DNA of 64,000 nt, taken from positions 1 through 64,000 of the forward strand of contig JAJDAN010000054.1 in assembly GCA_029261855.1 (NCBI GenBank). Direction: 5' to 3'. Each line of letters begins with the position of its first letter. The first letter of the stretch is position 1. Below, piece by piece: positions 33,705-52,522 of the stretch. This DNA comes from Deltaproteobacteria bacterium. Its GTDB lineage: Bacteria > Myxococcota_A > UBA9160 > UBA4427. The notes below the pieces were generated by a model. That model did not search any database. It was not told the DNA's origin and saw only the letters and a list, made by a program, of their open reading frames with translations. Both the position numbers and the translations under genes were made by a program.

Positions 33705-33760
33705 CGAGACCTCCGAACAGGTTCCAAGCAGATCCCCCCCGGAGGTCTCATCGGCGGCTC

Positions 33761-33801
33761 GAGCTGAGAAAAGGTGATCTGGATCACACTTTTCTCAGCT
33801 C
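33761..33801. promoter_or_regulatory. 41-nt palindrome containing a CRP-type site (GTGA-N6-TCAC)
   Basis: Outer arms GAGCTGAGAAAAG (33761-33773) and CTTTTCTCAGCTC (33789-33801) are perfectly complementary. Inner arms GTGATC and GATCAC (33774-33779, 33782-33787) extend the pairing, leaving one unpaired A at 33788. The core matches the cAMP-receptor-protein consensus closely. It lies between the VOC gene's end and the start of the Ig/cadherin-like gene, centred 76 nt before that ATG. A terminator for the VOC gene is an alternative reading; no T-run follows the stem. Confidence 0.6.
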
Positions 33802-33814
33802 GGCGGACAGGCCT

Positions 33815-34183
33815 TCAGCTCATCCGGAAAAAATTGAGCTTGTTGCCGTCCAGGTCCCGGAAGTACCCGGCATAGAAGCCCTGTCCGCGCGGACCGGGAT
33901 CGCCTTCGTTCGTGGCCCCGAGCGAGAGCGCCTTCGCATGCAGCTTCTGGATCTGCTCGTCGCTCTCCGCCTGCAACGCGACCATCACCCCGTTGCCGAC
34001 CGTGGCGGGCTGCTTGTTCTCCGGGATGAAGATCGCAAGCAAGGGGTTGTCGATTCCTGTTCCCCACCCCACGAACTGGTCGGTCTCCATGAGTCGTTTG
34101 GCTCCCAGCTCGCCCAGGAGCGCGTCGTAGAAGGCGGTAGCTCGCGCCATGTCGTTGGTGCCGAGGCAGACGTAGCCGATCAT
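33815..34183 (-). CDS. VOC/glyoxalase family protein
   Basis: 122 residues from the ATG at 34183, with AGGAGAA 5 nt upstream. One vicinal-oxygen-chelate module pair: IGYVCLGTNDMARATAFYDALLGELGAKR, the first beta-alpha-beta-beta-beta unit, then LHAKALSLGATNEGDPGPRGQGFYAGYFRDLDGNKLNFF. The terminal RDLDGNKLNF block is the usual mark of glyoxalase/bleomycin-resistance-type proteins. Metal ligands cannot be assigned with confidence. It is cytosolic. The divergent neighbour is a P450. Confidence 0.87.
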   Translation of the reverse strand: MIGYVCLGTNDMARATAFYDALLGELGAKRLMETDQFVGWGTGIDNPLLAIFIPENKQPATVGNGVMVALQAESDEQIQKLHAKALSLGATNEGDPGPRGQGFYAGYFRDLDGNKLNFFRMS

Positions 34184-34254
34184 TGGACTTCTCCTTGAAA
34201 GAAAGGCGGGCGCTCCGCAGGTGATAGCACGGGGATGAGCGTAGAATCCCAGGC

Positions 34255-35538
34255 ATGACCGCTGCCTCCGACCGCCCGCTCGACAGCTACAACGCCTTCG
34301 ACCCGGCCGTCCAGGAAAACCCCTGGCACTACTACGCACTGCTCCGGCAGGAGGCGCCGGTCTACAAGGACCCGACCACCGGGCTGTTCATGGTGTCGAC
34401 CCACGGCCTCGTGATGGATGCGATCAAGAACTGGGAGGTGTTCTCGAACCGCTTCGCCGCGGCCATGGCACCGCCCGATGGCCAGAGCGCCTTCACGGGC
34501 GCGGGCGGCGACGATGCGGCCGAGGTCGAGTCGGGATTGCTGGCGCGCCCGCTGATGCCCGTGGACACCATGCTGACCGCGGACCCGCCGGCACAGAAGC
34601 GCTACCGGTCGCTGGTCGACAAGGCGTTTCGCCTGAGCCGGGTGCGGTCACTGGCCCCGCGCATCCATGAGCTGTGCACCAACCTGATCGACGCCTTCAT
34701 CGACGAGGGCCGCGTCGAGCTACGCAGCGCCTTCGCCGTCCCGCTACCACTGTCCGTCATCGCCGAGCAGCTCGGTGTGCCCGCCCAGGACCTCCCCGAC
34801 TTCAAGAAGTGGTCCGACGGATTCGTCGCGCAGCTCGGGGGCATGGCGAGTCCCGAAGAGCAGGAACGCGCCAAGGCACTGATCTTCGAATTCCAGCGCT
34901 ACTTCGCGAAGATCGTCGCCTCGCGACGGGCGCGTCCCCAGGACGACATCATTTCGGACATGGTGAATGCCGCCGACGAACGTGGCATCCCCCTCGACAT
35001 GGCCGAGTCGCTCTCGATCCTGCAGCAGTTGCTGGTCGCGGGGAACGAGACCACTGCCAGCACCATCTGTGAGGGCGCCCGGCTCTTCGCAGAGCACCCG
35101 GAAGCCTGGGCGCGCATCCGCCAGGACCCGACGCTCATCCCGAACGCCGTCGAGGAGATCCTGCGACTCGCGACCCCTACGGCGAATATGTGGCGGATCG
35201 CCACTGAAACGACGAGCCTGGGCGGCGTCGAGATCCCCAAGGGATCGATGGTGATGCTGCGCTTCGCCGCTGCGAACCGCGACGAGGGCGTGTTCGAGGA
35301 CCCGGACCGTTTCGACATCGATCGCAAGAACGCCAACGAGCACGTGGCGTTCGGCTACGGGATCCACTTCTGTCTGGGCGCTCAGCTGGCGCGTGCCGAG
35401 CTGGTGAAGTCACTCGAGGCACTCAGTCGCCGGATCGTGACGCTCCGCATTCCGGCGGACGCAGCGCCCCTCGAGCACACCCCGAACATCCTGCTGCGCG
35501 GCCTGAAGTCGCTGCCGCTGGAATTCGAGCGCGCCTAG
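34255..35538 (+). CDS. Cytochrome P450
   Basis: 427 residues. All P450 landmarks are present: I-helix oxygen-activation motif LLVAGNETTAST near 265, K-helix ExxR in VEEILRLATP, and the haem-thiolate loop VAFGYGIHFCLGAQLARAEL with the Cys ligand near 372. DTMLTADPPAQKRYRSLVDKAF is the conserved N-terminal substrate-side helix of bacterial soluble P450s. No membrane anchor, so it needs a separate ferredoxin/reductase pair, not encoded nearby. The substrate is not predictable; the neighbouring sterol-desaturase-type hydroxylase hints at lipid or terpenoid oxidation (weak inference). Its stop forms one end of repeat copy C. Confidence 0.95.
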   Translation: MTAASDRPLDSYNAFDPAVQENPWHYYALLRQEAPVYKDPTTGLFMVSTHGLVMDAIKNWEVFSNRFAAAMAPPDGQSAFTGAGGDDAAEVESGLLARPLMPVDTMLTADPPAQKRYRSLVDKAFRLSRVRSLAPRIHELCTNLIDAFIDEGRVELRSAFAVPLPLSVIAEQLGVPAQDLPDFKKWSDGFVAQLGGMASPEEQERAKALIFEFQRYFAKIVASRRARPQDDIISDMVNAADERGIPLDMAESLSILQQLLVAGNETTASTICEGARLFAEHPEAWARIRQDPTLIPNAVEEILRLATPTANMWRIATETTSLGGVEIPKGSMVMLRFAAANRDEGVFEDPDRFDIDRKNANEHVAFGYGIHFCLGAQLARAELVKSLEALSRRIVTLRIPADAAPLEHTPNILLRGLKSLPLEFERA

Positions 35539-35610
35539 CTGGCGAAGCCAGAGGCTTCGCTTGCGACGGAAGCCGAAATCCCAAGACGGGGTCTTGGGTC
35601 GGCCTCCTAG
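35535..35610. repeat. Stop-anchored intergenic repeat, copy C (inverted relative to A and B)
   Basis: 76 bp exactly filling the gap between the convergent P450 and hydroxylase genes. The left end CTAG holds the P450 TAG. The right end CCTCCTAG, read in reverse, is TAGGAGG and holds the hydroxylase stop. The 8-bp hairpin CCCAAGAC/GTCTTGGG and the GGCTTC/GAAGCC arms are conserved with copy A at nearly every position. Confidence 0.88.
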
Positions 35611-36434
35611 CCTGCGATCGCGGGGCTTCGGTCGGACTCCACGCTGCGGCATTCCGTGCAGCGATAGCTCGGCCGCTTTGCCGCCTTGTCGCTCGGAGTC
35701 AGGCGGGTGCCCGCCAGGATGTCCATGAAGCCGGTGAAGAAACCATAGTTGTGATCGAGGCTGCCTGCGTGGTGCTCGTTGTGGTGCCAGGCGGAAAGCA
35801 TGAAGCGGCTGTGGGGCGAAGGCATCCAGGGCGGGTCGTAGCCGGCGTGCAGATAGGTGCCGTACAGGAAGTTCATGCTGGCGAAGGTGCCAATGAGCGC
35901 GACGTCGAGGATCGGGAACAGAAACGGGATCCAGATGATCGGCGACGCCTTGATGAACATGTCGACCGGTTGGTCGGCCATCACCCCGAACGGCGTCGGG
36001 TTCGAGTAGCGGTGGTGATGCTTGTGGACCTGCCACAGCCAGTCGTTGCGGTGACAGGCCCAGTGGAACGCCCACTCGAAGATCTCCATGACCAGGAACA
36101 CGCCCACGACGCTGAGCGGAATCGCCCACAGCGGGTATTCGCCGGGAGAGGCGTAGAGCTTGTTGTAGCCGTGGTACGAGAACCAGAACGACAGCGCGAC
36201 GCAGCCCATCACCATGGTCATGGAAAGCGTTCCGTCGAAGATCTCTCCCCGCACCTGCCGGGAACGCGTAGGCTGCATCTGCGTCTTGAAGCGACGGGCG
36301 CGTCCCGCGAAGCGTGAGCGCTGCAACAGCAGGTAGAGCCCGCCGCAGATCAGGAAGTACCAGCTGAGACCGATTGCCGCGAGCACCGGCCAGAGCAGGT
36401 AGAAGGGAAGCCCGGCGAAGAGATCGAGAAGCAT
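35607..36434 (-). CDS. Sterol desaturase / fatty acid hydroxylase family membrane protein
   Basis: 275 residues from the ATG at 36434. Hydrophobic helices at the N-terminus (FAGLPFYLLWPVLAAIGLSWYFLI) and middle (MTMVMGCVALSFWF, LSVVGVFLVMEIF) alternate with the di-iron His motifs: FHWACHRNDWLWQVHKHHHR and, near the C-terminus, SAWHHNEHHAGSLDHNYGFF. This is the ERG3/C-4 methyl sterol oxidase / alkylglycerol monooxygenase-type fold, an integral membrane non-haem di-iron oxygenase. The substrate could be a sterol, carotenoid or fatty chain. It converges with the P450 through repeat copy C. Confidence 0.9.
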   Translation of the reverse strand: MLLDLFAGLPFYLLWPVLAAIGLSWYFLICGGLYLLLQRSRFAGRARRFKTQMQPTRSRQVRGEIFDGTLSMTMVMGCVALSFWFSYHGYNKLYASPGEYPLWAIPLSVVGVFLVMEIFEWAFHWACHRNDWLWQVHKHHHRYSNPTPFGVMADQPVDMFIKASPIIWIPFLFPILDVALIGTFASMNFLYGTYLHAGYDPPWMPSPHSRFMLSAWHHNEHHAGSLDHNYGFFTGFMDILAGTRLTPSDKAAKRPSYRCTECRSVESDRSPAIAG

Positions 36435-36581
36435 CCGGCGATCGTAGCCAGCTGGGCGAGAAGGGGTACGGGGGCGCCCCGCCCCATCGCCCTGCAATCA
36501 CCTCCCTGCGCAGCGACTTCCCTGCATCGCGCCGGTGTGGATGGCCCGGTAGTCTCGCCCGGCAACCCGGGAGGCAGCGAC

Positions 36582-36929
36582 ATGTCGATTCTCTTCAGCC
36601 GATCGCGCGGGCCAGCCGCCGCACTGATTCTCGTATTCGGAGCACTCAGCGCGGGGTCGTTGGGCTGCTTCAACGAGGGCCGGACCACCACCATCGTCTC
36701 GGCGACGCGCTTCGAGGTGACCACGGGCAGCGTGGTGCTCGGCGCCCGGCAGCTGCTCGTCGACACGGCGAACGGCGACGTCTGGATCCTCGAAGGCGAC
36801 CGCGCACCCGGCGCGCAATGGGTGCTGCTGGCGCGCGGGCCCGACGACGCCCGCGAGCCCGAGACCGCGACCGTGCAGGTTCCCATCGGCGAGGCGGACG
36901 AGCTCTCGGACAAGCTCCGGGACGAATAG
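36582..36929 (+). CDS. Small hypothetical lipoprotein
   Basis: 115 residues from the ATG at 36582 with GGGAGG upstream. The signal peptide ends in a lipobox (GALSAGSLGC, Cys about 28). The mature part is short and beta-rich (TTIVSATRFEVTTGSVVLGARQLLVDTANGDVWILEG), ending in a charged tail. The single repeat-like unit LLVDTANGDVWILEG resembles one propeller blade. No known family was recognised. Its stop codon lies in the inverted second repeat module. The divergent gene is the hydroxylase. Confidence 0.65.
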   Translation: MSILFSRSRGPAAALILVFGALSAGSLGCFNEGRTTTIVSATRFEVTTGSVVLGARQLLVDTANGDVWILEGDRAPGAQWVLLARGPDDAREPETATVQVPIGEADELSDKLRDE

Positions 36930-36961
36930 CTGCGGTCTGACGACCTTTGCGTCGTCGCCTG
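36926..36961. repeat. Inverted copy of repeat module 2 at a convergent junction (copy D)
   Basis: The reverse complement contains GCGACGACGCAAAGGTCGTC followed by AGACCGCAGCTA, matching 8385-8419 at all but two positions of about 35. The TAG stop of the small lipoprotein gene is part of it. The flanking CTCCAAGACGACGCTTTGG (36965-36983) is reminiscent of the CCAAGAC hairpin of module 1. The junction is again between convergent genes. Confidence 0.75.
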
Positions 36962-37008
36962 GTTCTCCAAGACGACGCTTTGGGCCAGGGGCCTGGGAAG
37001 CTCGCGGA

Positions 37009-37284
37009 TCAGCCGCCCGCCACCGCGGGGGATACGTCGATTTCCTGGCCTTCCAGCAGCACCGTCTGGGAGCGCTCAGGCAGGTGTCGCGAGCTTCGCC
37101 CGTCTATGAAGACGTGCACCCGCCGCGACACGTCGTCGTCCTCGATCATCATCGACTCGAGCTCGGGCCAGCGTTCGACCATACAATCGACGAGGTCGCG
37201 CACCGTCGCGCCGGGCTCGATGGGCAGCTCGGCGAAGCGTCCCCCGACGATGGGACGCAGGGTCGCATAGACCTTCACACGCAT
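37009..37284 (-). CDS. MoaD/ThiS family small protein
   Basis: 91 residues from the ATG at 37284 with GAGGCGA upstream. It has the ubiquitin-like beta-grasp pattern MRVKVYATLRPIVGGRF...VRDLVDCMVERWPELESMMI...VHVFIDGR, ending in the Gly-Gly needed for thiocarboxylation (SPAVAGG). MoaD delivers sulfur for molybdopterin. Small MoaD-like genes commonly accompany tungsten aldehyde oxidoreductases, and here the AOR gene lies 71 nt upstream in the same direction. A dedicated tungstopterin-synthesis or sulfur-carrier role for that enzyme is therefore likely. Confidence 0.87.
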   Translation of the reverse strand: MRVKVYATLRPIVGGRFAELPIEPGATVRDLVDCMVERWPELESMMIEDDDVSRRVHVFIDGRSSRHLPERSQTVLLEGQEIDVSPAVAGG

Positions 37285-37355
37285 ACCGACTCGCCTCTAC
37301 TCGAACGCGTCTGCGGCTCAGTCAGTCGATGCGCGAAGCGCTCTCGACCTGCGGT

Positions 37356-39170
37356 TCACGGAATCTGCATCGCGTCGAGCTTCGTCTTCGGGACGACGCC
37401 GTTCTCCCAGCCTCGCTCGGCGTAGTACTCCGCGAGCATCGGCTCGAGCTCGCAGACGTGGCCCTTCGATCCGGCCGAGTCCGAGGGCTCTTCGAGGTAG
37501 CGCTTCGGCAGCGTGTCGCTGCCGGCACCGAAGCCCGCCAGGTTGTTGAAGTAACGCTCGAGGTTGTAGACCCGTTCGCCCGCTTCCATCACGTCGTCTG
37601 CGCTCATGGGTCGTCCCATGGCCACCGAGTACTGCTTGGCGTACTCCTCTGCGCCTTCGGCGAAGGCGCTGAACTTGCAGAGGTCCATGCTGTCACCGAA
37701 GGCGTGCAGGTCCTGGAAGGTCTTGAGCAGCAGGCCCTTGCCCTTCCATTCGAGCGGGTCGGCCTCGATCGGCACGACCCCCAGTTCGGCGGCGGCCACG
37801 TAGCCGCGCAGGTGACAGGCGCCGCGGTTGCTGGTCGCGTAGCCGAGGCCCATGCCCTTCATGCCGCGCGGATCGTAGGCGGGCACCGCCTGCCCCTTCG
37901 CCACCATCGCGATCTCCGGGTGTCCGAGCTTGGCCGCCGCCAGTGCGGGGCCCTCCGCCAGCAGGTCGCCGACCCCTTTGCGCGCCGCCAGGTCTTCGGT
38001 CATCTGCACCATGCTCAGGGTGTCGCCCCAGGCGAGACCCGGGCCATCGACCCAGCCTCGCTCTGTGGCCTCCATGTACATCGACAGCACGTTCCCCAGC
38101 TCGATGGGGTCGAGGCCCAGGTCGTTGCACTGGTCGATCAGCTTGGCGATGGACCCGAGGTCGTCGTTGTCGCAGTTGGCACCCAGGGACCAGGCCGGCT
38201 CGTACTCGACGCTCTCCATCTTCAGGCCCTTCCACGGGCCCTCCTTCACCTCGACCTCCTTCTTGCACGCGACCGGACAGGCGTGACAAGTCGGGTTTCC
38301 GGTGAGGATCGTGTCGACGACGGTCTCGCCGCTGATGGCTTCGGCGCGGTCACCGAACGACGTGCTCTGGCTGTTGCGCGTGCCGAGGGCGCCGATGCGG
38401 TTGGTGATGTTGGTGATGACGTTGGTGCCGTAGACCGACAGGCCGCCCTTCTTGGGGCTCGTGATGTTGGCCTCGTCGCGGATCATGTCGAGGGTCTCGC
38501 GACGGACCTGCTTCCAGGCGGCGGGATCGCTCACCACGCTCTTCTTGTGGCTTGCGGCGATGACGATGGCCTTCAGCTTCTTGACGCCGCCGATGGCGCC
38601 CGTGCCGCCTCGCCCGAAGGCGCGGTCGTCTTCGTTCACCCAGGCGGCGAAGCGGGACAGGTTCTCGCCGGCGGGGCCGATGGCGTTGACCGAGACGTCC
38701 TTGCCGCCGTGGCGTTCCTTCAGGATGCGGACGGTCTCGTGGATCCCGAGCCCCCAGACATCCGAGGCGTCGTGGAAGGACAGCTTGCCCTCTTCGACCA
38801 GCACATAGGTGGGTGCGTCCGCCGCTCCCTCGAAGACCAGACCGTCGAAGCCGGCCCAGCGCAGACGGGCTCCCGTCCAGCCTCCCTGATGGCTGTCGGT
38901 CACGGTGCCGGTGAGGGGAGACTTCGTCACACAGGCCCAGCGGCCGCTCATGCTGGCCTCGCTGCCCGTGAGGGGGCCGTTCAGGAAGCAGAGGAGATTG
39001 TCGGCAGACAGTGGCTCGACGTCGGGGCCGTTCTCGAGCACGTACCGCACGCCGAGGCCGCGGGCGCCGACGTACTTCTCGACCCAGTCCTTCGGGGCGG
39101 GCTTCATCTCCCAGCTGCGCTTGGCAAGGTCGATGTGCGCAATCGCTTCACCGAATCGATCGAGCTGCAT
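37356..39170 (-). CDS. Tungsten-containing aldehyde:ferredoxin oxidoreductase family protein
   Basis: 604 residues from the ATG at 39170 with AGGAGAG upstream. AOR landmarks: YVGARGLGVRYVLENGPDVEPLSADN and LLCFLNGPLTGSEASMSGRWACVTKSPLTGTVTDSHQGG in the N-terminal pterin-binding domain; the [4Fe-4S] cysteines CHACPVACKKEV near 306 with the last ligand in SMDLCKFSAF; and EYEPAWSLGANC, RGMKGMGLGYATSNRGACH. The family uses W-bispterin plus one iron-sulfur cluster to oxidise aldehydes or reduce acids with ferredoxin. Most studied members are anaerobic, so its place among oxygenases is notable. It forms an operon with the MoaD-like gene. Confidence 0.92.
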   Translation of the reverse strand: MQLDRFGEAIAHIDLAKRSWEMKPAPKDWVEKYVGARGLGVRYVLENGPDVEPLSADNLLCFLNGPLTGSEASMSGRWACVTKSPLTGTVTDSHQGGWTGARLRWAGFDGLVFEGAADAPTYVLVEEGKLSFHDASDVWGLGIHETVRILKERHGGKDVSVNAIGPAGENLSRFAAWVNEDDRAFGRGGTGAIGGVKKLKAIVIAASHKKSVVSDPAAWKQVRRETLDMIRDEANITSPKKGGLSVYGTNVITNITNRIGALGTRNSQSTSFGDRAEAISGETVVDTILTGNPTCHACPVACKKEVEVKEGPWKGLKMESVEYEPAWSLGANCDNDDLGSIAKLIDQCNDLGLDPIELGNVLSMYMEATERGWVDGPGLAWGDTLSMVQMTEDLAARKGVGDLLAEGPALAAAKLGHPEIAMVAKGQAVPAYDPRGMKGMGLGYATSNRGACHLRGYVAAAELGVVPIEADPLEWKGKGLLLKTFQDLHAFGDSMDLCKFSAFAEGAEEYAKQYSVAMGRPMSADDVMEAGERVYNLERYFNNLAGFGAGSDTLPKRYLEEPSDSAGSKGHVCELEPMLAEYYAERGWENGVVPKTKLDAMQIP

Positions 39171-39300
39171 GGCGGCTCTCCTGTCTTGAGGCCCAGGCTT
39201 CGTCCAGAAGCCGGAATGTACCACGGCGGGTCCCGGGGCAATGTCTCGGATGCGCCGCGCCCGTCTGCGGGGCATCATCCCGGTCCCAGCCGGAGGCGTC

Positions 39301-39543
39301 ATGGATTTCGAGAATGCAGTGGTGGTGTCGAGCTTTCCGAACCAGGAGACCGCCGAGGCGGCGGTCTCGCTGCTGAAGTCCGAGGGAGTGGACGCGGTCA
39401 TCGGCGCCGATGGCGCCGGCGGCGAGCTCCCCAATCTCGAGCTCGCCCGGGGCGTCCGGGTCCTGGTCCAGTCCGAGAACGCGGAGTTCGCCCGCGCCCT
39501 CCTCGAGCAGGGGGCGAACGACGACGACGGAAGCGACGCCTGA
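39301..39543 (+). CDS. DUF2007-type small signal-transducing protein
   Basis: 80 residues from the ATG at 39301 with GGAGG upstream. The pattern VVVSSFPNQETAEAAVSLLKSEGVDAVIGADGAGGELPNLELARGVRVLVQSENAEFARALLEQ is the ferredoxin-like fold of DUF2007, often annotated as a putative PII-like or prokaryotic signalling protein. No catalytic residue is apparent. The gene sits alone, converging with apt and divergent from the aldehyde oxidoreductase. Its function is not established. Confidence 0.82.
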   Translation: MDFENAVVVSSFPNQETAEAAVSLLKSEGVDAVIGADGAGGELPNLELARGVRVLVQSENAEFARALLEQGANDDDGSDA

Positions 39544-39556
39544 ACGCGGTCTTGGG

Positions 39557-40087
39557 TCAGTCGAGGTAGCGGATCACGGCGTGGCAGGGGTCCACGCCCA
39601 GGGCTTTGCGACCCTCGAGGAAGCACAGCTCGACCAGGAACGCGCAGCCCACGACGGTGGCACCCGTCTGCCGCACGAGGTCGACCGTCGCCACGGCAGT
39701 ACCGCCGGTCGCGATCAGGTCGTCGACCACCAGCGCCCGCCCACCCGGCGCGAGCGCATCGGCGTGGATCTCGACCTGGTCCGTCCCGTACTCGAGCTCA
39801 TAGCTGGCAGACAGGGTCTGATGGGGCAGTTTTCCGGGCTTGCGTACCGGGACGAAGCCGACGCCCAGCTCGATCGCAACCGGCGCGCCGAGGATGAAGC
39901 CGCGGGCTTCGGTTCCCACCACGCAGTCGATGCGATCCCCACGGAAGGGCTCGGCCATGGCCTGCACGGCGAGCCGCAAGGACGCCGCGTGCGCGAACAA
40001 GGGGGTCAGGTCGCGAAACAGGATCCCCGGTTTGGGGAAATCCGGAATGTCGCGAACGTACTTCCGCAGCTCGGCCTCGACGTCCAT
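39557..40087 (-). CDS. apt: Adenine phosphoribosyltransferase
   Basis: 176 residues, the normal Apt length. N-terminal LRKYVRDIPDFPKPGILFRDLTPLF is characteristic of Apt, as is VVGTEARGFILGAPVAIELGVGFVPVRKPGKLPHQT. The PRPP-binding loop is ALVVDDLIATGGTAVATVDLVR. The enzyme converts adenine and PRPP to AMP in purine salvage, in the cytosol. GAGGAG lies upstream of the ATG at 40087; an in-frame ATG at 40126 is less likely. The upstream M23 peptidase gene is co-directional, about 100 nt away, and DUF2007 converges. Confidence 0.95.
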   Translation of the reverse strand: MDVEAELRKYVRDIPDFPKPGILFRDLTPLFAHAASLRLAVQAMAEPFRGDRIDCVVGTEARGFILGAPVAIELGVGFVPVRKPGKLPHQTLSASYELEYGTDQVEIHADALAPGGRALVVDDLIATGGTAVATVDLVRQTGATVVGCAFLVELCFLEGRKALGVDPCHAVIRYLD

Positions 40088-40162
40088 CCAGTGCACTCCT
40101 CGCTCGCCGTCAGACTCGCAACCCACTTCGAAGCAACGCCTCGAGGCTGTCGAGCTCGAGGC

Positions 40163-40188
40163 GCCGAAACTCAGGGCCGAAACTCAGG
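40163..40188. repeat. 13-nt tandem duplication spanning the M23 peptidase stop codon
   Basis: GCCGAAACTCAGG occurs at 40163-40175 and again at 40176-40188. The TGA stop of the minus-strand peptidase gene (40186-40184) is in one copy, and the other copy carries the same TGA out of frame. A recent slippage duplication is likely. Confidence 0.85.
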
Positions 40189-41041
40189 GAAGGTAGAGCA
40201 TCGGGTCGCGCGGGCTCGTGCGTCGTCGAATTTCGAAGTGGAGGTGCGGACCGGTCGAGCGTCCGGTGCTGCCCACGAGCGCCACGCGATCGCCCTTCTC
40301 GACGAACTGCCCCTTCCTCACGAGGATCTTGCTCGCGTGGGCGTACACCGTGCGGTAGTCGCCCGCGTGCTTGATGACGACGACCTTGCCGTAGTCGCCC
40401 AGCCGTCCGGAGTGGATCACCCGTCCCGACTCTGCGGCGCGGATCGGCGCGCCCTGGCGCGCACCCAGGTCGATGCCTTCGTGCGGACGCCCGCGACGAG
40501 TGCCATAGCGCGAGGTCAGCTTCGCCCGCAGAGGCCAGGCGAACTCGAGATTCGACGTACGCCGCACGTCCAGCCGCGCCAGTCGGCGGGCCTCCGATGC
40601 CTGGGTCGGACGACGCGGCGCGGCGCTGACCGCCGGCTTCCCCGCCTGGGGCCCACCGCGAGGCTCGGTGATTGCCTGACGCGGAATCCACAGCCGCGTG
40701 CCCGGCCGGATGGTCGTGACGTCGTCGATGCGATTGGCCTTGACGAGAACCGACGAAGCCACGCCGTAGCGCAGGCCGATCCGGTACAGGTTCTCACCCG
40801 GCTCGACCCGGTGATAGAAGCCCGAGGTCTGCCCGGACGAACAGCCCACCGCGAACACCGCGACCACGACGGCCAGGCTCACACCCACGAGAGCACGGAC
40901 GCGGAGGATCCTGCCGCGTCCGATCGGACCCGTGGAACCGGACACGCTGCGCTGGCGATAGGCGGATTTCACTGGGCGCGGGTCCCTGCTCCTGTGACGG
41001 GCCCCTTGGCGGCGGCCTTCGACGGTCTCATCGGCACTCAT
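40184..41041 (-). CDS. LysM/M23 peptidoglycan-binding lipoprotein (NlpD/EnvC-like)
   Basis: 285 residues from the ATG at 41041. The hydrophobic segment VSLAVVVAVFAVGCSS carries a lipobox-like Cys near 67, unusually far from this start; a GTG at 40972 would shorten the N-region but also lacks a ribosome site. A LysM domain follows (YHRVEPGENLYRIGLRYGVASSVLVKANRIDD...LWIPR), then an M23 domain: TSRYGTRRGRPHEGIDLGARQGAPIRAAESGRV, YAHASKILV and GPHLHFEIRRR. His and Asp metal ligands are present, so it may be an active endopeptidase or an amidase activator. A CRP-type site lies about 130 nt upstream. Confidence 0.87.
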   Translation of the reverse strand: MSADETVEGRRQGARHRSRDPRPVKSAYRQRSVSGSTGPIGRGRILRVRALVGVSLAVVVAVFAVGCSSGQTSGFYHRVEPGENLYRIGLRYGVASSVLVKANRIDDVTTIRPGTRLWIPRQAITEPRGGPQAGKPAVSAAPRRPTQASEARRLARLDVRRTSNLEFAWPLRAKLTSRYGTRRGRPHEGIDLGARQGAPIRAAESGRVIHSGRLGDYGKVVVIKHAGDYRTVYAHASKILVRKGQFVEKGDRVALVGSTGRSTGPHLHFEIRRRTSPRDPMLYLP

Positions 41042-41164
41042 CGGCGAGATCCGGTCGCGGTGTGACCGGCGCAAGCGAGGGCGCTCAGGGAGGGGGAAGT
41101 GGGACCTTAGCACCGCGGACCCCGGCCCCGCAGACCCGCGGGGTTTCCCGCCCGCGCGACGGGA

Positions 41165-41180
41165 TGTGATCCCTGTCACA
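41165..41180. promoter_or_regulatory. CRP-type operator TGTGA-N6-TCACA
   Basis: TGTGATCCCTGTCACA is a full match to both CRP half-sites with the canonical six-base spacer. It is centred 100 nt before the ATG of the FG-GAP/FN3 protein at 41273 and 131 nt before the divergent LysM/M23 gene. Its core differs from the site at 52411 by a single base. Confidence 0.6.
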
Positions 41181-41272
41181 GCGCATCGAGCCAGTCCTTC
41201 CGAATCCACCCACACGTCGGGGATGGGAATCCCGGCGTCGGCCAGCCGGCCGCAAACGTGGGGACGTACTGC

Positions 41273-42352
41273 ATGACCCTGGGACGAGCCGTTCGAATCG
41301 CCTTCTTCGTGGTGGGAGTGGTCACCGTCGGAACGCTGCTGTCGGGAACCGCAGTGGCCCAGGTGCTCATCAAGGACACCACGGCGCGCTTCGATTGGCA
41401 GCCCGCCAGCGGCAACGTCGAGTTCTACGAGGTCTGGGTCTCGCGTTCGAGTCGCGAGGGACACTACGAGATCGAGCAGACCGTCACGGTCCCCTACGCC
41501 TTCATCGACGCCGGCCTCGGCGAGGTCGTTCGGATCCGGGTACGCGCGGGGAATTCGACGGTCTTCGGCCCGATGTCGCCGCCTTCGGACGCGGTCCGCC
41601 TCGGTTTGCCCACGGAACTTCCGGTCGTCGGGACGCTGGGCGTCATCAACGGACGCGCTGCGGGCAGCGACACCGGCGACGTCTTCTACGCAGACCCCGA
41701 AACGGACTCGGTCTGGCGCTTCTCGACGCTCGATCCCAGCGCGGATTCGGTCGAGATCGGAAGCGAGTCCGACCCGGGCTGGAAGATCGGCGCCAGTGGC
41801 GACTTCGACGGTGACGGTGCATCGGATCTCTTCTGGCACCACACGAACGGCGCGACCCGCATCTGGTACATCGACGGCACCAGCTACGAGGAAGAGCCGG
41901 GCCCGCTCTGCCCGGGTCCGCTCTGGGTCGTAGAAACGACGGGTGACTTCGACGGCAACGGTCAGGACGATCTGTTCTGGCGCGAGCCTGCGGGCCCCAC
42001 CCTCGCCTGGCTGCGCACCGGAGTCGACTTCGGGCTCGTCTACTTCCCGCCCGTCTCGAGCGCGGTCTGGGAACTGCTCTCCGTGGGCGACTTCGACGGA
42101 GACGGCTTCGACGACCTGTTCTGGCGCAACTTGAACACCACCGACACCGCCGTCTGGTTCACCGCCAACGACCCCTACAACGGCCTCTATGCCCAGGTCC
42201 GGGCGTCGAAGAAGCGGTCTCTGCTGTGGGAAGTCTTCGAGAGCCGCGACGAAGACAACGACGGCATCGAGGATGTCCACTGGCGTGTGCGCAACAGCCA
42301 CGATGTCAGCGAGTGGTGGTACATGGACGGAGAGAACGTCCGCACCGACTGA
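41273..42352 (+). CDS. Secreted FN3-like/FG-GAP protein
   Basis: 359 residues from the ATG at 41273. The signal peptide is MTLGRAVRIAFFVVGVVTVGTLLSGTAVAQ. A fibronectin-III-like domain (TARFDWQPASGNVEFYEVWVSRSS...RIRVRAGNSTVFGPMSPPSDAVRL) closely parallels the N-terminal domain of the 47537 protein. FG-GAP-type calcium loops follow: GDFDGDGASDLFWHH, GDFDGNGQDDLFWRE, GDFDGDGFDDLFWRN, and DEDNDGIEDVHWR. The DLFWR pattern is a distinct VCBS subtype. It is probably exposed on the surface. The CRP-type site at 41165 lies upstream. Confidence 0.8.
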   Translation: MTLGRAVRIAFFVVGVVTVGTLLSGTAVAQVLIKDTTARFDWQPASGNVEFYEVWVSRSSREGHYEIEQTVTVPYAFIDAGLGEVVRIRVRAGNSTVFGPMSPPSDAVRLGLPTELPVVGTLGVINGRAAGSDTGDVFYADPETDSVWRFSTLDPSADSVEIGSESDPGWKIGASGDFDGDGASDLFWHHTNGATRIWYIDGTSYEEEPGPLCPGPLWVVETTGDFDGNGQDDLFWREPAGPTLAWLRTGVDFGLVYFPPVSSAVWELLSVGDFDGDGFDDLFWRNLNTTDTAVWFTANDPYNGLYAQVRASKKRSLLWEVFESRDEDNDGIEDVHWRVRNSHDVSEWWYMDGENVRTD

Positions 42353-42408
42353 CCCGGCCCCGCACGCGGCGCCGCCGACCCCTCGGGCCGATCCCTCCAG
42401 CCGACGCC

Positions 42409-43620: not shown

Positions 43621-43690
43621 TCCGGACGCCCGCTGTACCCCGAGTGCGGCTACCGTCGCCTGAAGGCAACGCCAAGGACGGGACGTCTCC

Positions 43691-46462: not shown

Positions 46463-47195
46463 GCTCGACGCGCACGTTGACCTCGGGTCCGGTTGCGACG
46501 GGCGGGGTCACGCGCACGTCCGCCGGCAGCTCGCTGAAGCGCGCCTCCCCGACCGCCGAGTACGTCACGAACTGCGCGATCGGCGAGTCGATGGCCAGGA
46601 AGCCGGTGGCGTTCACGTAGCCACGCGCGTCGTCGTAACCGACGCTCGGGACGCGGGTGCAAGCCGTGTCGGCGTCGCTCGGGCTCACGTCCTCTCCACA
46701 CCAGACCAGCAGGCGTTGTCCCCAGACGGGTTCCGGGCCCCGGAACCCGCCGTCCCGGGTCGTTCGCATGTCGGCTCTCACCCGGGCATGCACCTCGGTG
46801 GTCGCGAACCCCCAACCGACCTCGTAGGCGAACACGCCCGAGAAGGATGCCGACTCGACCGCGCCGGTCTCCGGGTCGAAGATCCAGACGTAGTCGCTGA
46901 AGCTGCCGGCCACCGGGTCGCGCTCGGAAAAGAGGCTCTTCTCGAGGACGGCGCCATCGACACGCACGACAATGCGACCGCGCGCATCGGTTTCGAGCCA
47001 GGCGGCGAACGGTCGCGTGTAGACACGGTCGAGCCATTCGGGATGCTCGTTGGGCGAGTCCTCGAACTGTACGACGACCCAGCGCGGCGTGGCGTCATCG
47101 AGCTGCATGGGCTCTGCCTGAAGCGGACCCGCTGCCAGCAGCAGGCCGATCCCGGTCGCCCAGATCGCCCCAAGGCGTGAAATCAGAACCGACAT
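46401..47195 (-). CDS. Secreted hypothetical protein
   Basis: 264 residues from the ATG at 47195. The signal peptide is LGAIWATGIGLLLAAGPLQAEP. The mature part is beta-rich with aromatic residues (RWVVVQFEDSPN, YVWIFDPETGAVESASFSGVFAYEVGWGFATTEVHARVRADMRT) and one Cys pair (LVWCGEDVSPSDADTACTRV). No recognised domain. The C-terminus is helical (SGRELEAALQAVLAP) and coded by DNA that also encodes the end of the CehA-like protein on the other strand. It is divergent from the FN3/dockerin-like gene and shares its 341-nt upstream region. Function unknown. Confidence 0.65.
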   Translation of the reverse strand: MSVLISRLGAIWATGIGLLLAAGPLQAEPMQLDDATPRWVVVQFEDSPNEHPEWLDRVYTRPFAAWLETDARGRIVVRVDGAVLEKSLFSERDPVAGSFSDYVWIFDPETGAVESASFSGVFAYEVGWGFATTEVHARVRADMRTTRDGGFRGPEPVWGQRLLVWCGEDVSPSDADTACTRVPSVGYDDARGYVNATGFLAIDSPIAQFVTYSAVGEARFSELPADVRVTPPVATGPEVNVRVELSPSASGRELEAALQAVLAP

Positions 47196-47382
47196 TCTCG
47201 CGCGCTTGCCTCCGTGTCTCGTGGCTCTCCCCTGCTTGGAGTGCAAGCGCGGTACCAACGTTACTGGGCTGAGAAGGCGCCTCCTGGCCTCTCGTCGCGC
47301 AGCTTGCGGCAACAGTGGCAGCGCGCTTCCCAAACTTGCGCGCGCGTTCCATCGCTTCGCGGCTGCGCGCGATTGGCCACCC

Positions 47383-47396
47383 GTGAGAGCGATCAC
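47383..47396. promoter_or_regulatory. CRP-type half-site pair GTGAGAGCGATCAC
   Basis: Both GTGA and TCAC half-sites are present with a six-base spacer. It lies 72 nt (about seven helical turns) from the site at 47455 in the same intergenic region. On its own it could be a chance match, since about one is expected in 64 kb. Confidence 0.4.
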
Positions 47397-47454
47397 CTGG
47401 ATGGCGTGCGGCGCGTCACCTCTTCGCGCTTTCCGTGCACCCGTTCGCCTTGGC

Positions 47455-47468
47455 GTGACTGCAGTCAC
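47455..47468. promoter_or_regulatory. CRP-type operator, perfect palindrome GTGACTGCAGTCAC
   Basis: A perfect 14-nt palindrome with canonical GTGA-N6-TCAC spacing, centred 75 nt before the ATG at 47537. This is the same distance as the site upstream of the Ig/cadherin-like gene (76 nt). Confidence 0.58.
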
Positions 47469-47536
47469 GAGAAGTCCTGGCTTCGCGTCCGAACGAATGA
47501 ATCAGTTCAACGGTCGCGAACGAGGATCCGAGCCCC

Positions 47537-48688
47537 ATGCGCTCCAAGCCCTTCTCCTACGAACTCTGCCTCGCCCTCGCCGCTGCGACGACGCTGGCGT
47601 TGCTCGCGGACCCGACCGACGCCGCTGTCGTCGAAGGCAACGAGGCGAGCTTCAACTGGCAGGACGCCGCGGGACCGGTCACCGGCTACAACGTGTTCGT
47701 GACGCGCAACGGTACGCCGAGCAACACGCCGGAGGTCGTGGTCTCCTCCAGCGCGGCCACCGTGTCCGGTGCCACCGGAGACAGCATCGCCGTGCAGGTC
47801 GCCGCCTTCGACGCCGCGGGGAACCAGGGGCCGCTCTCGCCCGCATCCGAACTCGTACTCTTCACCGCAGCACCGCCCCCTCCCCCGCCCCCCTACGTGG
47901 TCGTGGACGTCACCGGAGACTTCTCGGTGATCGATGCGCTGGCCGCGGCCCAGCCGGGTGAACAGGTGGTCGCTCAGCTGCACGGTGCCGGGACGCTGCT
48001 CTTCGACGCGGGCCCGCCCGAAGAGCAAGACCCCGCCGATGACTGGGGGGTCGATCAGCTCGTCGTGGGCAGCCCCGAAGAGCCCACCGTGGTGCGACTG
48101 GTAGACGCCCTCGGCTTGACCGGGCTGACGTCGCCTCTCGTGGACCTCCCCGAAGTGACCCTCTTCGGCCTGGGCTCGGGACCCGCCTGCGACCGCGACG
48201 GTGGACCCGGCCTGATCGTTCACCCGGGCTCGCGCCTGATCCTGGGTGGGATCGAGCTGTTCGCCTTCGATGGAGAGCAATGTGTCTCCGTCAACGAGCT
48301 CTTTGCCGCCAGCGAGGATCCGAACCGCATCGCCTGGGGCGGCGGTCTCATCGACCTCCACGGCGATCTCGATTCGGACGGCGTGCTCGACCCGGACGAC
48401 AATTGCCTGCTCGTCGCGAACGTCGACCAATGCGACGGAGACCGGGACGGCTTCGGGAGCGCGTGCGACTTCGACGTCGATGGCGACCTCGTAACCAGCC
48501 TCGCAGACCTCGATCGCACCTTCGATGTCGCCAGCCTGACGGTGGTGTCTACCGATCCCGTCTTCGACCTCAACTGCGACGGAAGCGTCGGCCTCGATGA
48601 CGTGGGCGACATTTTCGACCACCAAGGTGCCCTGGTCGGACCCTCGGGTCTCGCCTGCTCTGCCGACGCCAGCTGTTTCCAACCGTGA
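47537..48688 (+). CDS. Secreted FN3/thrombospondin-3/dockerin-like protein
   Basis: 383 residues with signal peptide (SYELCLALAAATTLALLADPTDAA). An FN3-like domain comes first (EASFNWQDAAGPVTGYNVFVTRNG...VAAFDAAGNQGPLSPASELVLF), then a Pro-rich linker (APPPPPPPY) and a beta domain. Calcium-binding type 3 thrombospondin repeats follow (LDSDGVLDPDDNCLLVANVDQCDGDRDGFGSACD). The C-terminal dockerin-I-like pair is DVDGDLVTSLADLDRTF and DLNCDGSVGLDDVGDIFDH. Dockerins bind cohesins in cellulosome-like or surface assemblies; no cohesin is seen nearby. The N-terminal domain is paralogous to that of the 41273 protein. Two CRP-type sites lie upstream. Confidence 0.82.
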   Translation: MRSKPFSYELCLALAAATTLALLADPTDAAVVEGNEASFNWQDAAGPVTGYNVFVTRNGTPSNTPEVVVSSSAATVSGATGDSIAVQVAAFDAAGNQGPLSPASELVLFTAAPPPPPPPYVVVDVTGDFSVIDALAAAQPGEQVVAQLHGAGTLLFDAGPPEEQDPADDWGVDQLVVGSPEEPTVVRLVDALGLTGLTSPLVDLPEVTLFGLGSGPACDRDGGPGLIVHPGSRLILGGIELFAFDGEQCVSVNELFAASEDPNRIAWGGGLIDLHGDLDSDGVLDPDDNCLLVANVDQCDGDRDGFGSACDFDVDGDLVTSLADLDRTFDVASLTVVSTDPVFDLNCDGSVGLDDVGDIFDHQGALVGPSGLACSADASCFQP

Positions 48689-48840
48689 GGAGGAGCCAAT
48701 CCGTCGAGCGATGCGGGGTCCCGCCGTTTCCCCAACCCGCAGCGCTCGGCACCCGCCCGCCCCGGACCCCACGCCGGGGCGGGCGTCCCACTCCGCCCAC
48801 GCGGTTGACGGAGCAGTGGCAGTGGGCCAAGCTGCCGCCC
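48689..48840 (+). other. 5' part of the trpE(G) leader region, no gene seen
   Basis: Between the dockerin-like gene and the proposed leader peptide the DNA is Pro/Arg-codon-like and GC-rich. No family, ribosome site or clear promoter was recognised. TTGACG at 48805 could serve as a -35 box or as the TTG start of a longer leader peptide (two more Trp codons at 48817 and 48823 are in that frame). Confidence 0.4.
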
Positions 48841-48912
48841 GTGATCGACCAACGCACAGACGCGCGCCGCTGGTGGCGCCTCTCTCGAGCCCGGGAAGAG
48901 GCGGCCGCCTAG
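48841..48912 (+). CDS. Candidate trp leader peptide
   Basis: A 23-codon frame from the GTG at 48841 reads VIDQRTDARRWWRLSRAREE followed by three Ala. Two adjacent Trp codons (48871-48876) precede two strong hairpins and then trpE(G). In rhizobia the fused trpE(G) gene is controlled by a leader peptide with consecutive Trp codons, and this arrangement is the same. A longer version from the TTG at 48805 would contain four Trp. No good ribosome site is seen before either start, so the call is tentative. Confidence 0.42.
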   Translation: MIDQRTDARRWWRLSRAREEAAA

Positions 48913-48931
48913 TCTGTCGAACGAGTCATTC

Positions 48932-48991
48932 GAACTTCGAGTTCACTCGAGTTCAGCACAGAAGAGCCGCCTCGAACGAGGTGGCTCTTCT
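48932..48991 (+). promoter_or_regulatory. Candidate trp attenuator hairpins
   Basis: Hairpin 1 (48932-48954) is GAACT-t-CGAG / CTCG-AGTTC with loop TTCA. Hairpin 2 (48960-48991) is a 14-bp stem, AGAAGAGCCGCCTC / GAGGTGGCTCTTCT, with loop GAAC. The 3' arm of hairpin 1 can also pair with GAACGAG at the tip of hairpin 2, giving an antiterminator-like alternative. There is no T-run after hairpin 2, so the mechanism may not be classical intrinsic termination. Confidence 0.5.
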
Positions 48992-49072
48992 GCGTTCGGC
49001 CCTCGGCGCGTCCGGGGCGATCGAACGAGCACAGCGGAAGCGCCGCCTCCTCGAACCAGTAGGAGGCCGGAC

Positions 49073-51376
49073 ATGTCCGAGCAAGCACGAACCCGAGACG
49101 TCGCTTCCGTCACCGAAACCAACGGCGGCGCAATCGTCCATCGTCGCGAGATCATCGAGTCCGGATGCGCGTCTGGGATGCGATCCATCCAGGGCCTGGT
49201 GCGCGCCCTCGACACACGCCGGGGCGGCGTGTTCGCGTCGAGCCGCGAAGTGCCGGGCCGCTACACCCGCTGGGACCGCGGCTTCGTCGACCCTCCGATC
49301 GTGCTCGAAGCCCGGGACCGCGAGGTCGAGATGCGCGCGCTCAACGCGCGTGGACAGGTGCTGCTGCCCGCGTTCGTCCGCGCTGCCGAGGCCACGCCCG
49401 CGGCCCGCGTGAGCGCTCTCACACCGGACGGCGCGCGGGTTCACATCGAGCCGGCGACGGGCCGGATCCAGGAAGAGGACCGCAGCCGGCGCCCGTCGGT
49501 CTTTTCCCTGCTGCGAAGCATCGTGGCTCACTTCGCCAGCGACCACGACCCGGACCTCGGCCTGCACGGCGCCTTCGGCTACGACCTGGCCTTCCAGTTC
49601 GAACCGTTGCGGCTGCGGCATGCGCGACCCGAGGATCAGCGGGACTTCGTGCTCTACCTGGCCGACGAGCTGGTCCTCGTCGATCACCGGCGCGAGCTGT
49701 CCCATCGCATCGTGTACGACTTCGAGGTCGACGGCGTGTCCACCGCGGGCCTGCCGCGCACGGGGACATGCATCCCCTACCGCGCGACACGGCTTTCGAG
49801 CGCCAGCGACCACGAGCCCGGGGAGTACGCGCAGGTGGTTCGCCGGGCGCGGTCCGCCTTCGCCCGGGGAGACCTGTTCGAAGTCGTTCCCAGCCAGGTG
49901 TTCTCCGAGGGTTGCCCCAGCCCGCCGTCCGAGGTCTTCCGTCGGCTGCGGGAACGCAACCCGGCGCCCTACGGGTTCCTGCTCAATCTCGGCAACGAGG
50001 AATACCTGGTCGGAGCCTCGCCGGAGATGTACGTCCGCGTCGGCGATCCGGGGACGCGCGTCCCGAGGTCCGAAGCCGTGCGACGTCGGGTCGAGACCTG
50101 CCCCATCGCCGGAACCATCGCGCGCGGACGCGACCCGCTGGAGGACGCCGAGCAGATCCGCACGCTGCTGGCGTCCGACAAGGACGCCTGTGAGCTCACC
50201 ATGTGCACCGACGTCGACCGCAACGACAAGAGCCGGGTGTGCGTACCGGGCAGTATTCGCATCGTCGGGCGGCGCGAGATCGAGCTGTACTCGAGGCTCA
50301 TTCACACCGTCGACCACGTCGAGGGCACCCTGCGTCCGGGCCTCGACGCCCTCGACGCCTTCCTGACCCACACCTGGGCGGTGACGGTGACCGGCGCACC
50401 CAAGGCCTGGGCGATGCGCTTCATCGAGGACCACGAGCTTTCGCCTCGCCGTTGGTACGGCGGCGCCGTCGGGAGCCTGGGGTTCGACGGCCGCCTGGAT
50501 ACGGGGCTGGTGCTGCGGACGATCCGGATCGCCGGGGGCATCGCGGAGACGCGCGTGGGCGCCACCTTGCTGCATGCCTCCGATCCGGACCTCGAGGAAG
50601 CCGAGACGCGCCTCAAGGCTGCGGCGTTGCTCGACGCCATCCGGCGGCCCGACGCGCCCGTGGGCGCCGGGGTTCGGGGCGGAGTCGGGGGCCGGGGCGT
50701 GGGCGAGCCCGACCCATCGGTCGCGTCCGCGGGTAGCGGACGGCGCGTGCTGGTCGTCGACGCCCAGGACTCCTTCGTTCATACCCTGGCTGACTACTTC
50801 CGGCAGACCGGCGCGTCCGTGAAGACCCTGCGCGCTGGCTTCCCGACGGAAGATCTCGCGCGCTACGAACCCGACCTCGTGGTGCTGTCTCCGGGGCCCG
50901 GGCGACCGAGCGACTTCGGGCTGCAGGACGTGCTCGCCGAAGCCGAGCGCCTGGGCCTGCCGGTGTTCGGGGTCTGTCTCGGGCTGCAGGCCATCGTCGA
51001 GTACTGCGGCGGCGAGCTCGGTGTCCTGCCGGAGCCCGCGCATGGCGAGGGGTCCCAGGTCCGGGTGCTGGGGGGAGCGCTCTTCCGCGGCCTGCCCCCG
51101 GCGTTCGAGGCAGGACGCTACCACTCGCTCTATGCGCGCGAAGAGGCTCTACCGGCGGTCATCGCCGTCACAGCCCGGGACGCCACCAGCGACCTCGTGA
51201 TGGCCATCGAGCATCGCGAGCTTCCCTGGAGCGGTGTCCAGTTCCATCCGGAATCCCTGTTGACCGCGAGCGACGGGATCGGACATCGATTGATCGCGAA
51301 CTGTGTGGCCGCGGCGCCCGTGCGCGAACGATCCGCGCGCTCCCGTGTCTGGACACAGGGGGCCGTTCCGGGATGA
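49073..51376 (+). CDS. trpE(G): Anthranilate synthase, fused components I and II
   Basis: 767 residues. Residues 1-530 are TrpE: RRGGVFASSREVPGRYTRWDRGFVDPPIVLEARDRE near the tryptophan-binding region, DLFEVVPSQVFSEG, RNPAPYGFLLNLGNEEYLVGASPEMYVRV, TCPIAGTIARGRD, LTMCTDVDRNDKSRVC, TVTGAPKAWAMRFIE, RRWYGGAVGSLGFDG. A linker follows, then TrpG amidotransferase: RVLVVDAQDSFVHTLADYF, VFGVCLGLQAIVEYCGGEL with nucleophile Cys, and WSGVQFHPESLL with catalytic His. It makes anthranilate from chorismate and glutamine, the first step of tryptophan synthesis. The fusion is of the rhizobial TrpE(G) type. A Trp-codon leader and hairpins precede it. Confidence 0.96.
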   Translation: MSEQARTRDVASVTETNGGAIVHRREIIESGCASGMRSIQGLVRALDTRRGGVFASSREVPGRYTRWDRGFVDPPIVLEARDREVEMRALNARGQVLLPAFVRAAEATPAARVSALTPDGARVHIEPATGRIQEEDRSRRPSVFSLLRSIVAHFASDHDPDLGLHGAFGYDLAFQFEPLRLRHARPEDQRDFVLYLADELVLVDHRRELSHRIVYDFEVDGVSTAGLPRTGTCIPYRATRLSSASDHEPGEYAQVVRRARSAFARGDLFEVVPSQVFSEGCPSPPSEVFRRLRERNPAPYGFLLNLGNEEYLVGASPEMYVRVGDPGTRVPRSEAVRRRVETCPIAGTIARGRDPLEDAEQIRTLLASDKDACELTMCTDVDRNDKSRVCVPGSIRIVGRREIELYSRLIHTVDHVEGTLRPGLDALDAFLTHTWAVTVTGAPKAWAMRFIEDHELSPRRWYGGAVGSLGFDGRLDTGLVLRTIRIAGGIAETRVGATLLHASDPDLEEAETRLKAAALLDAIRRPDAPVGAGVRGGVGGRGVGEPDPSVASAGSGRRVLVVDAQDSFVHTLADYFRQTGASVKTLRAGFPTEDLARYEPDLVVLSPGPGRPSDFGLQDVLAEAERLGLPVFGVCLGLQAIVEYCGGELGVLPEPAHGEGSQVRVLGGALFRGLPPAFEAGRYHSLYAREEALPAVIAVTARDATSDLVMAIEHRELPWSGVQFHPESLLTASDGIGHRLIANCVAAAPVRERSARSRVWTQGAVPG

Positions 51377-51434
51377 CTCTCCCGGAACGAGCCCCTATCG
51401 TTCGCGATCCTTTCGAACCCGACCGGAGAACTCC

Positions 51435-52340
51435 ATGCGCGCCCCGCACGAAAGCCCCGAGCCCCATCGCAAACCTCGGCTCGGACCCACCCGACTCGCT
51501 CTCGTGGCCCTGGTCGCCTTGTCGGTTCCCTTCCAGCTTGCGACGGCAGCCGAAGAGGCGACGGGCGGTGCGGCAGCCAGCTCCGGGTTCGACCCGAAAC
51601 TGACCGGCCGACAGGTCTACGAGAAGGTGCTCGACAACCGCTACGACGCCTATCTCGAAGAGATCACGATGCACTCCGGGGATCGCGGCGGCAACGTCCA
51701 AAACACGGAGATGGAGCTGAAGTACCGGAACTTCCGCAAGGAGAGCGACCGGATCATATCGAAGGTCATCACCAAGTATCTGGCTCCCCAGGACGTGCGG
51801 CACCTGGGCTACCTGGTCATCAACAAGTCCGACGGCAGCGAAGACCAGTTCGTGTACCGGCCGAGCTCGCGGCGAGTGCAGCGCATCAACCTGCGTGGCG
51901 AGGCGATCTTCGGCACGGACTTCGCGTTCGAGGACATCATCCCCCAGGAGATCGAGGACGCGACCTACGAGCGCCTCGCCGATGCCGATGTGGACGGTCG
52001 CCCGGTCTACCACGTCGACGTCATCCCCAAGCCCAGCGCCGACTCGGAATACTCGAAGCTCGAGGTCTTCGTCGACCCGCAGACCTTCGTGACCCTTCGC
52101 GTGATCTACTGGGACCAGGACGGCCTCAAGATCAAGCAGCTCAACTCCGACGTCGAGTCCATCCAGTCGTTCGAGCACGAGCAGGACGGCCAGGTGAAGA
52201 AGATCTTCCTGGCCATGAAGCAGAAGATCGAGCACCTGAAGCTCGAATCCTGGACGGAGCTGCAGGTCCAGAAGTACGACCCCGACGTCGACTTCAAGAG
52301 CCGTCACTTTTCCGAGCGGGAGCTGACGAAGGGCCGCTAG
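51435..52340 (+). CDS. LolA-like outer-membrane lipoprotein-sorting family protein
   Basis: 301 residues from the ATG at 51435 behind GGAGA. The signal peptide LALVALVALSVPFQLATAAEE follows a basic N-region. The body has the LolA/LppX-type half-barrel pattern of the outer membrane lipoprotein-sorting family: GRQVYEKVLDNRYDAYLEEITMHSGDRGG, FVYRPSSRRVQRINLRGEAIFGTDFAFEDI, YHVDVIPKPSADSEYSKLEVFVDPQTFVTLRVIYWD. These proteins often partner RND-type exporters that move lipids or hopanoids; none is seen here. Periplasmic. It follows trpE(G) by 58 nt. Confidence 0.83.
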   Translation: MRAPHESPEPHRKPRLGPTRLALVALVALSVPFQLATAAEEATGGAAASSGFDPKLTGRQVYEKVLDNRYDAYLEEITMHSGDRGGNVQNTEMELKYRNFRKESDRIISKVITKYLAPQDVRHLGYLVINKSDGSEDQFVYRPSSRRVQRINLRGEAIFGTDFAFEDIIPQEIEDATYERLADADVDGRPVYHVDVIPKPSADSEYSKLEVFVDPQTFVTLRVIYWDQDGLKIKQLNSDVESIQSFEHEQDGQVKKIFLAMKQKIEHLKLESWTELQVQKYDPDVDFKSRHFSERELTKGR

Positions 52341-52410
52341 GAGCGTGCGCCGCCGCCAGGGCCGGCTCACCCGAGTGCAGCTCACCGGCAACGGGACCGC
52401 AGACCCGGGC

Positions 52411-52424
52411 GTGACCCCTGTCAC
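52411..52424. promoter_or_regulatory. CRP-type operator GTGACCCCTGTCAC
   Basis: Both half-sites with six-base spacer, one base different from the site at 41166-41179. It is centred 105 nt before the ATG of the TPR/cNMP-binding-domain gene at 52523, in the 182-nt gap after the LolA-like gene. Confidence 0.55.
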
Positions 52425-52522
52425 TCATCCTTGTCGGCCATGGACCCGATAGGGGAGAAGCGTGGGGCCTGCTCGAGCCCATGCGGCGCGGGAGTCGCTG
52501 AAGCCGGACCCGAGGATCGCCG

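Follow-up and report, generated by a model that had tools for sequence, protein, structure and literature searches.

CRP-type operators of the form GTGA-N6-TCAC, found upstream of secreted-protein and signalling genes in this genome, are one half of a composite promoter, a distinct class in which a CCGA(T/A) box follows the operator at a fixed distance. Judged by sequence, these sites are most likely the operators of a CRP-family activator, a homologue encoded on contig C18. We assign a probability of about 0.6 to the complete model, in which a C18-type CRP would act with a sigma28-type RNA polymerase at class II composite promoters. The window analysed here comprises bases 1-64000 of the 163-kb contig C54, from a genome of 6.96 Mb with 68% GC.

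The window contains six exact matches to GTGA-N6-TCAC, compared with 0.94 expected from 100 shuffles (maximum 4). This rate agrees with a first-pass annotation of the same DNA, which had estimated about one chance site per 64 kb. The five intergenic sites with exact spacing that it reported (33774, 41166, 47383, 47455 and 52411) are all found at those positions, but its list omits the sixth palindrome, at 49409, which lies inside a gene and is judged to be a chance occurrence. Four of the five intergenic sites have the composite form GTGA-N6-TCAC-N19..21-CCGA(T/A). The relevant features are listed below, where G001 is a genome of the same genus.

12097..15399, + strand: class III nucleotide cyclase domain with AAA ATPase and TPR (domain match)
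32187..33704, - strand: secreted protein with bacterial Ig / cadherin-like repeats (Big_9, He_PIG), target of 33774
33750..33754, - strand: -10-like box CCGAT, 20 nt past operator 33774
33774..33787, - strand: CRP-type operator GTGATCCAGATCAC, facing the Ig-repeat gene 32187-33704, centre at -76
41166..41179, + strand: CRP-type operator GTGATCCCTGTCAC, upstream of the Fn3/FG-GAP gene 41258-42352
41200..41204, + strand: -10-like box CCGAA, 21 nt past operator 41166, kept in G001
41258..42352, + strand: secreted Fn3-like and FG-GAP protein, target of 41166
47383..47396, + strand: distal operator GTGAGAGCGATCAC, preceding 47455 by 72 nt and lacking a -10-like box
47406..47419, + strand: weak, possibly third site GTGCGGCGCGTCAC with one mismatch, between the two strong operators
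47455..47468, + strand: proximal operator GTGACTGCAGTCAC of gene 47537-48688, centre at -75, identical in G001
47489..47493, + strand: -10-like box CCGAA, 21 nt past operator 47455, kept in G001
47537..48688, + strand: secreted Fn3-like and thrombospondin-3-like repeat protein, target of 47455
49409..49422, + strand: sixth exact GTGA-N6-TCAC palindrome, in frame within an anthranilate-synthase gene
52411..52424, + strand: CRP-type operator GTGACCCCTGTCAC, upstream of the two-domain cyclic-nucleotide-binding gene
52446..52450, + strand: -10-like box CCGAT, 22 nt past operator 52411
52523..54055, + strand: protein with two cyclic-nucleotide-binding domains (PF00027), target of 52411

Domain matches bear out in outline the targets named earlier, three secreted beta-repeat proteins and a two-domain cyclic-nucleotide-binding protein, and they also recover the class III cyclase reported in the window. 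This cyclase is a possible source of the ligand. No DNA-binding domain was found in the protein at 52523..54055. The distances of 76 and 75 nt given for 33774 and 47455 are correct, as is the one-base difference between 41166 and 52411. Those of 100 and 105 nt given for the latter two hold for starts at ATG 41273 and ATG 52523, but the gene caller preferred 41258 and 52562. The first of these ATG codons is backed by the same-genus orthologue, in which the site is at -99. Components I and II of anthranilate synthase share one open frame in the gene around 49409.

Two of the window sites have additional architectural features. A perfect inverted repeat with 14-bp arms (33760-33802; CGAGCTGAGAAAAG / CTTTTCTCAGCTCG) carries the 33774 operator in its loop. 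Located 13 nt past the stop codon of a VOC-family gene and with a fold of -32 kcal/mol, it may be a terminator and an operator at once. A purely terminator role was rejected, and the site is retained as a probable operator, because the -10-like box sits 20 nt after it. The Ig-repeat orthologue in G001 lies at a contig edge. Upstream of the gene at 47537, the 72 nt between the distal and proximal operators correspond to about seven helical turns, which suggests that 47383 binds an auxiliary upstream dimer.

On a genomic scale, the excess of operators is one of place and not of number. The 85 GTGA-N6-TCAC sites in the 6.96-Mb genome do not exceed the shuffle rate, but 21 of them are intergenic, compared with 9.2% of the sequence (binomial P = 2.2e-5). 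Genic and intergenic sites were told apart by a purpose-built gene caller based on codon usage, run on 1.64 Mb that includes all 85 sites. The comparison had been proposed as a check in the first-pass annotation, and it comes out in favour of the operators, whose density in intergenic DNA is about 3.2 times that in genes. Enrichment is seen for GTGAY-N4-RTCAC (13 intergenic and 10 genic), as opposed to GTGAR-N4-YTCAC (2 and 23). The same half-sites at other spacings yield no comparable set, with small, noisy counts for some control motifs. Degenerate operators matching 7 of 8 positions show hardly any excess over controls (6 at the right spacing versus 0-4 at control spacings), so the strict core is the rule. 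As for a CRP operator, the palindrome concentrated in promoters is the exact-N6 GTGA/TCAC form.

The box was found by lining up downstream sequence on the operator. Its fixed position was overlooked in the earlier interpretation, whose reading of the sites as operators is otherwise supported. In 15 of 25 gene-facing orientations, a (C/G)CGA(T/A) sequence begins 20-22 nt past the operator; the same is true of 0 of 17 orientations facing away and 3 of 128 genic ones, against a background chance of 2%. The corresponding P value (1.6e-19) is exploratory because the rule was derived partly from the same sites. An independent test is provided by orthologues of a TPR target, a set that was unexamined when the rule was derived. 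An operator occurs within 330 nt at 11 of 19 relatives' loci, and in 8 of these 11 cases the box follows it at 20-22 nt.

In total, 35 composite promoters were collected, 27 of them with a distance of exactly 21 nt. The genome itself has 14 composite sites that make up 15 promoters, and a gene-facing box at the set spacing is absent from 6 of its 21 intergenic sites. Four of the 14 fall within 18.7 kb in the window, a cluster that simple arithmetic predicts in about 1 in 10,000 genomes if sites are placed at random. Three PilZ genes, two of them with the box, have an operator of this class upstream, as do two TPR genes, one FHA gene, the cyclic-nucleotide gene, the secreted Fn3/FG-GAP/Ig genes and a bactofilin gene whose box is one base off. 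Between a TetR-family gene and a divergent cytochrome P450 gene lies another operator with a GCGAAT box (C14:13730; L031:9951-10057), which could be a TetR operator instead.

Conservation was examined in Myxococcota / 'Deltaproteobacteria' metagenome-assembled genomes, isolate UBA9160 included. The region is syntenic in G001, which keeps all four testable window sites (41166, 47383, 47455 and 52411). Alignments with this genome retain the half-sites, while much of the flanking DNA has changed; the counterpart of the 41166 operator, for example, is GTGACGGCAGTCAC. The 47383/47455 pair is spaced 73 nt apart in G001 and 72 nt here, and the weak 47406 site is matched at the corresponding position by one that likewise has a single mismatch. 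In other genera, operators are found before orthologues of the cyclic-nucleotide gene (G004, G010, G019 and G024) and before Fn3/FG-GAP relatives (G008, G014, G026, G027, G031 and, less surely, G022 and G019). Several target orthologues in the relatives have no operator. The sites thus pass the orthologue check that had been suggested for them, being kept upstream of orthologous genes though the surrounding DNA has diverged.

The nature of the box can be judged from a second set of promoters. In upstream DNA, CCGAT ranks second among the over-represented pentamers. Apart from the operator, the motif tied to the box is TCAAG, located 16 nt before it. Examples of the resulting TCAAG-N16-CCGA(T/A) class are C17:27176, C21:300650, C21:384251 and C16:14558. 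The pairing recurs in separately retrieved DNA (4 intergenic cases at N16 versus 0-1 at other spacings) and also in relatives, where the loci are mutually related and counts are not independent. Two of the proteins served by this class carry pilin-type N-methylation motifs; others are one PilZ protein and one diguanylate cyclase as well as TPR, FHA and LysM proteins. The mapped sigma28 (FliA) promoters of attack-phase Bdellovibrio have the consensus TTAAG-N16-CCGATA (PMC3627812).

A GCCGAT-type -10, as used by sigma28, is matched by CCGA(T/A) at a fixed position in the 35 composite promoters. The sigma28 -35 (TAAA/TTAAG/TCAAG, 15-16 nt) is present in the TCAAG-N16 class and absent from the operator class. 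Since the bases equivalent to CAAG are unconserved in the operator class, and the last operator base takes the position of the T in TCAAG, the operator appears to stand in for the -35.

Several CRP-like proteins are encoded in the genome, which yields 15 cyclic-nucleotide-domain matches in all. A CRP-family gene with a matching recognition helix, which the first-pass annotation had proposed to look for, is found on another contig (C18:10712-10050, minus strand). It encodes a 220-aa CRP homologue whose recognition helix, SRETVTR, has the pattern R-E-x-V-x-R. About 30 of 40 relatives have a protein 55-94% identical over its length. Four of five cAMP-contact equivalents are kept (E72, R82, S83 and T127) and S128 is replaced by D, in E. 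coli CRP numbering. Both the cyclic-nucleotide and the TPR target family are confined to relatives with the C18 protein (Fisher P 0.01 and 0.04), an association confounded by ancestry. Raw motif counts do not drop in 8 genomes without a C18 orthologue, a comparison that is uninformative because most matches lie in coding sequence. We infer that the C18 activator acts at these operators.

Autoregulation of crp was considered and rejected. The GTGAT-N4-ATCAC upstream of the gene consists of the in-frame D-V-I-L-I-T-K codons of a neighbouring gene. GTGA-N6-TCAC is found upstream of C18-type crp in 17 of 45 relatives, and in the genome studied here the site is inside this neighbour. Such conserved coding matches near crp (L133-L162) are a trap for motif scans.

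In the proposed mechanism, the operator would occupy a class II position, with its centre some 41 bp ahead of the transcription start, a figure uncertain by a few bases because the start is placed from the box; the operator-to-box distance itself is fixed. At a promoter of the sigma28 (FliA/WhiG) type, the operator would take the place of the -35. The CRP homologue, bound to a ligand that is probably a cyclic nucleotide, would then recruit sigma28-type RNA polymerase, presumably as an activator rather than a repressor. Genes served in this way would encode the secreted Fn3/FG-GAP/Ig-repeat proteins and the two-domain cyclic-nucleotide receptor and, elsewhere in the genome, TPR, PilZ and FHA proteins.

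E. coli class II CRP promoters have their operator centred at -41.5. The promoters described here share with them the operator core, its palindromy and its probable position, but the E. coli promoters use a TATAAT -10 and serve sugar catabolism, whereas CCGA(T/A) and secreted and signalling genes are found here. To our knowledge, few activators work with sigma28. Activation of sigma28 by CRP has been described as needing an unusual -49.5 position, and at E. coli aer it fails from -41.5 (PMC2859248), which by analogy counts against the proposed class II geometry. The aer and trg promoters likewise combine a CRP operator with a GCCGA-type sigma28 -10 at motility/sensing-type genes (PMC2859248). 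However, their operator lies upstream of an intact TAAA -35, whereas the operator here would replace this element and, judging from the spacing to a start placed from the box, lie about one helical turn closer. In addition, aer and trg are two genes, in contrast to a conserved promoter set.

The TCAAG class is close to the Bdellovibrio FliA promoters in spacing and -10, with a near-identical consensus, and both serve non-flagellar surface and signalling genes; the excerpted account describes no version with a CRP operator (PMC3627812). Similarly, a flagellar-type consensus is used for pili and c-di-GMP genes in the Rubrobacter WhiG regulon, where sigma28-type promoters control type IV pili (PMC8325347). 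Control there is exerted by a c-di-GMP-responsive anti-sigma factor, rather than by a CRP operator as here (PMC8325347).

Other explanations can be offered for the same sites. They might be ordinary class II CRP promoters transcribed by the housekeeping sigma factor, whose -10 requirement would, in this lineage, tolerate CCGA(T/A) when the activator is bound, with no role for sigma28. The spacing suits such promoters, a -35 consensus is missing from the operator class, and the 29% of the genome that was read contains RpoH/RpoD-type and ECF sigmas but no sigma28 gene. We nevertheless regard this as the unlikelier account, since the same box also pairs with TCAAG at N16, like the Bdellovibrio FliA promoters (PMC3627812), and no TATAAT-like bases are found past the box in the operator class. 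The next alternative, also improbable, accepts the operators but assigns GTGAY-N4-RTCAC to a different regulator. One candidate is a second CRP-like protein, C56, whose helix TRESVSR keeps R-E-x-V-x-R and the same three DNA-contact residues; another is a non-CRP dimeric factor, as several families bind short palindromes. The loss of the supposed crp autoregulation fits this alternative. Set against it are the missing cAMP-contact serine and threonine of C56, the wide distribution of the C18 protein, and the ancestry-confounded restriction of two target families to genomes that carry it.

Far less probable is a mixture of terminator hairpins and local operators of the TetR type, with a shared pattern that is partly coincidence. 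The hairpin just past a stop codon at 33774 and the TetR/P450 setting of C14:13730 are what such a mixture would contain, yet both of these sites have the box at the common spacing. Box and spacing also hold at sites with neither feature and in orthologues from other genera.

The preferred reading, a C18-type CRP working with sigma28-type polymerase, would have consequences beyond the window. It is about an even bet that the promoters form a regulon throughout the genome's order, with the CRP homologue driving a flagellar-type sigma from an operator that replaces the -35, and thereby coupling a cyclic-nucleotide signal to surface, pilus-related and PilZ genes. If so, cyclic-nucleotide and c-di-GMP (PilZ) signalling would be linked in this lineage, and the class II operator set would show that CRP can work with an alternative sigma factor in a further manner, with a geometry different from that of E. 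coli aer if the -41 position holds. For the four window genes, the shared arrangement would place surface and signalling functions under the control of a small-molecule signal. Candidate regulator, operator and core box together define a testable regulon for a large uncultured myxobacterial lineage.

In several relatives (L294, L295, L296 and L297), secreted Fn3/FG-GAP genes occur in runs. These adjoin a conserved glycosyltransferase-like gene (VRVALVHDWLTGxRGGERVL) and a Lon-like gene, an arrangement that suggests a conserved surface locus.
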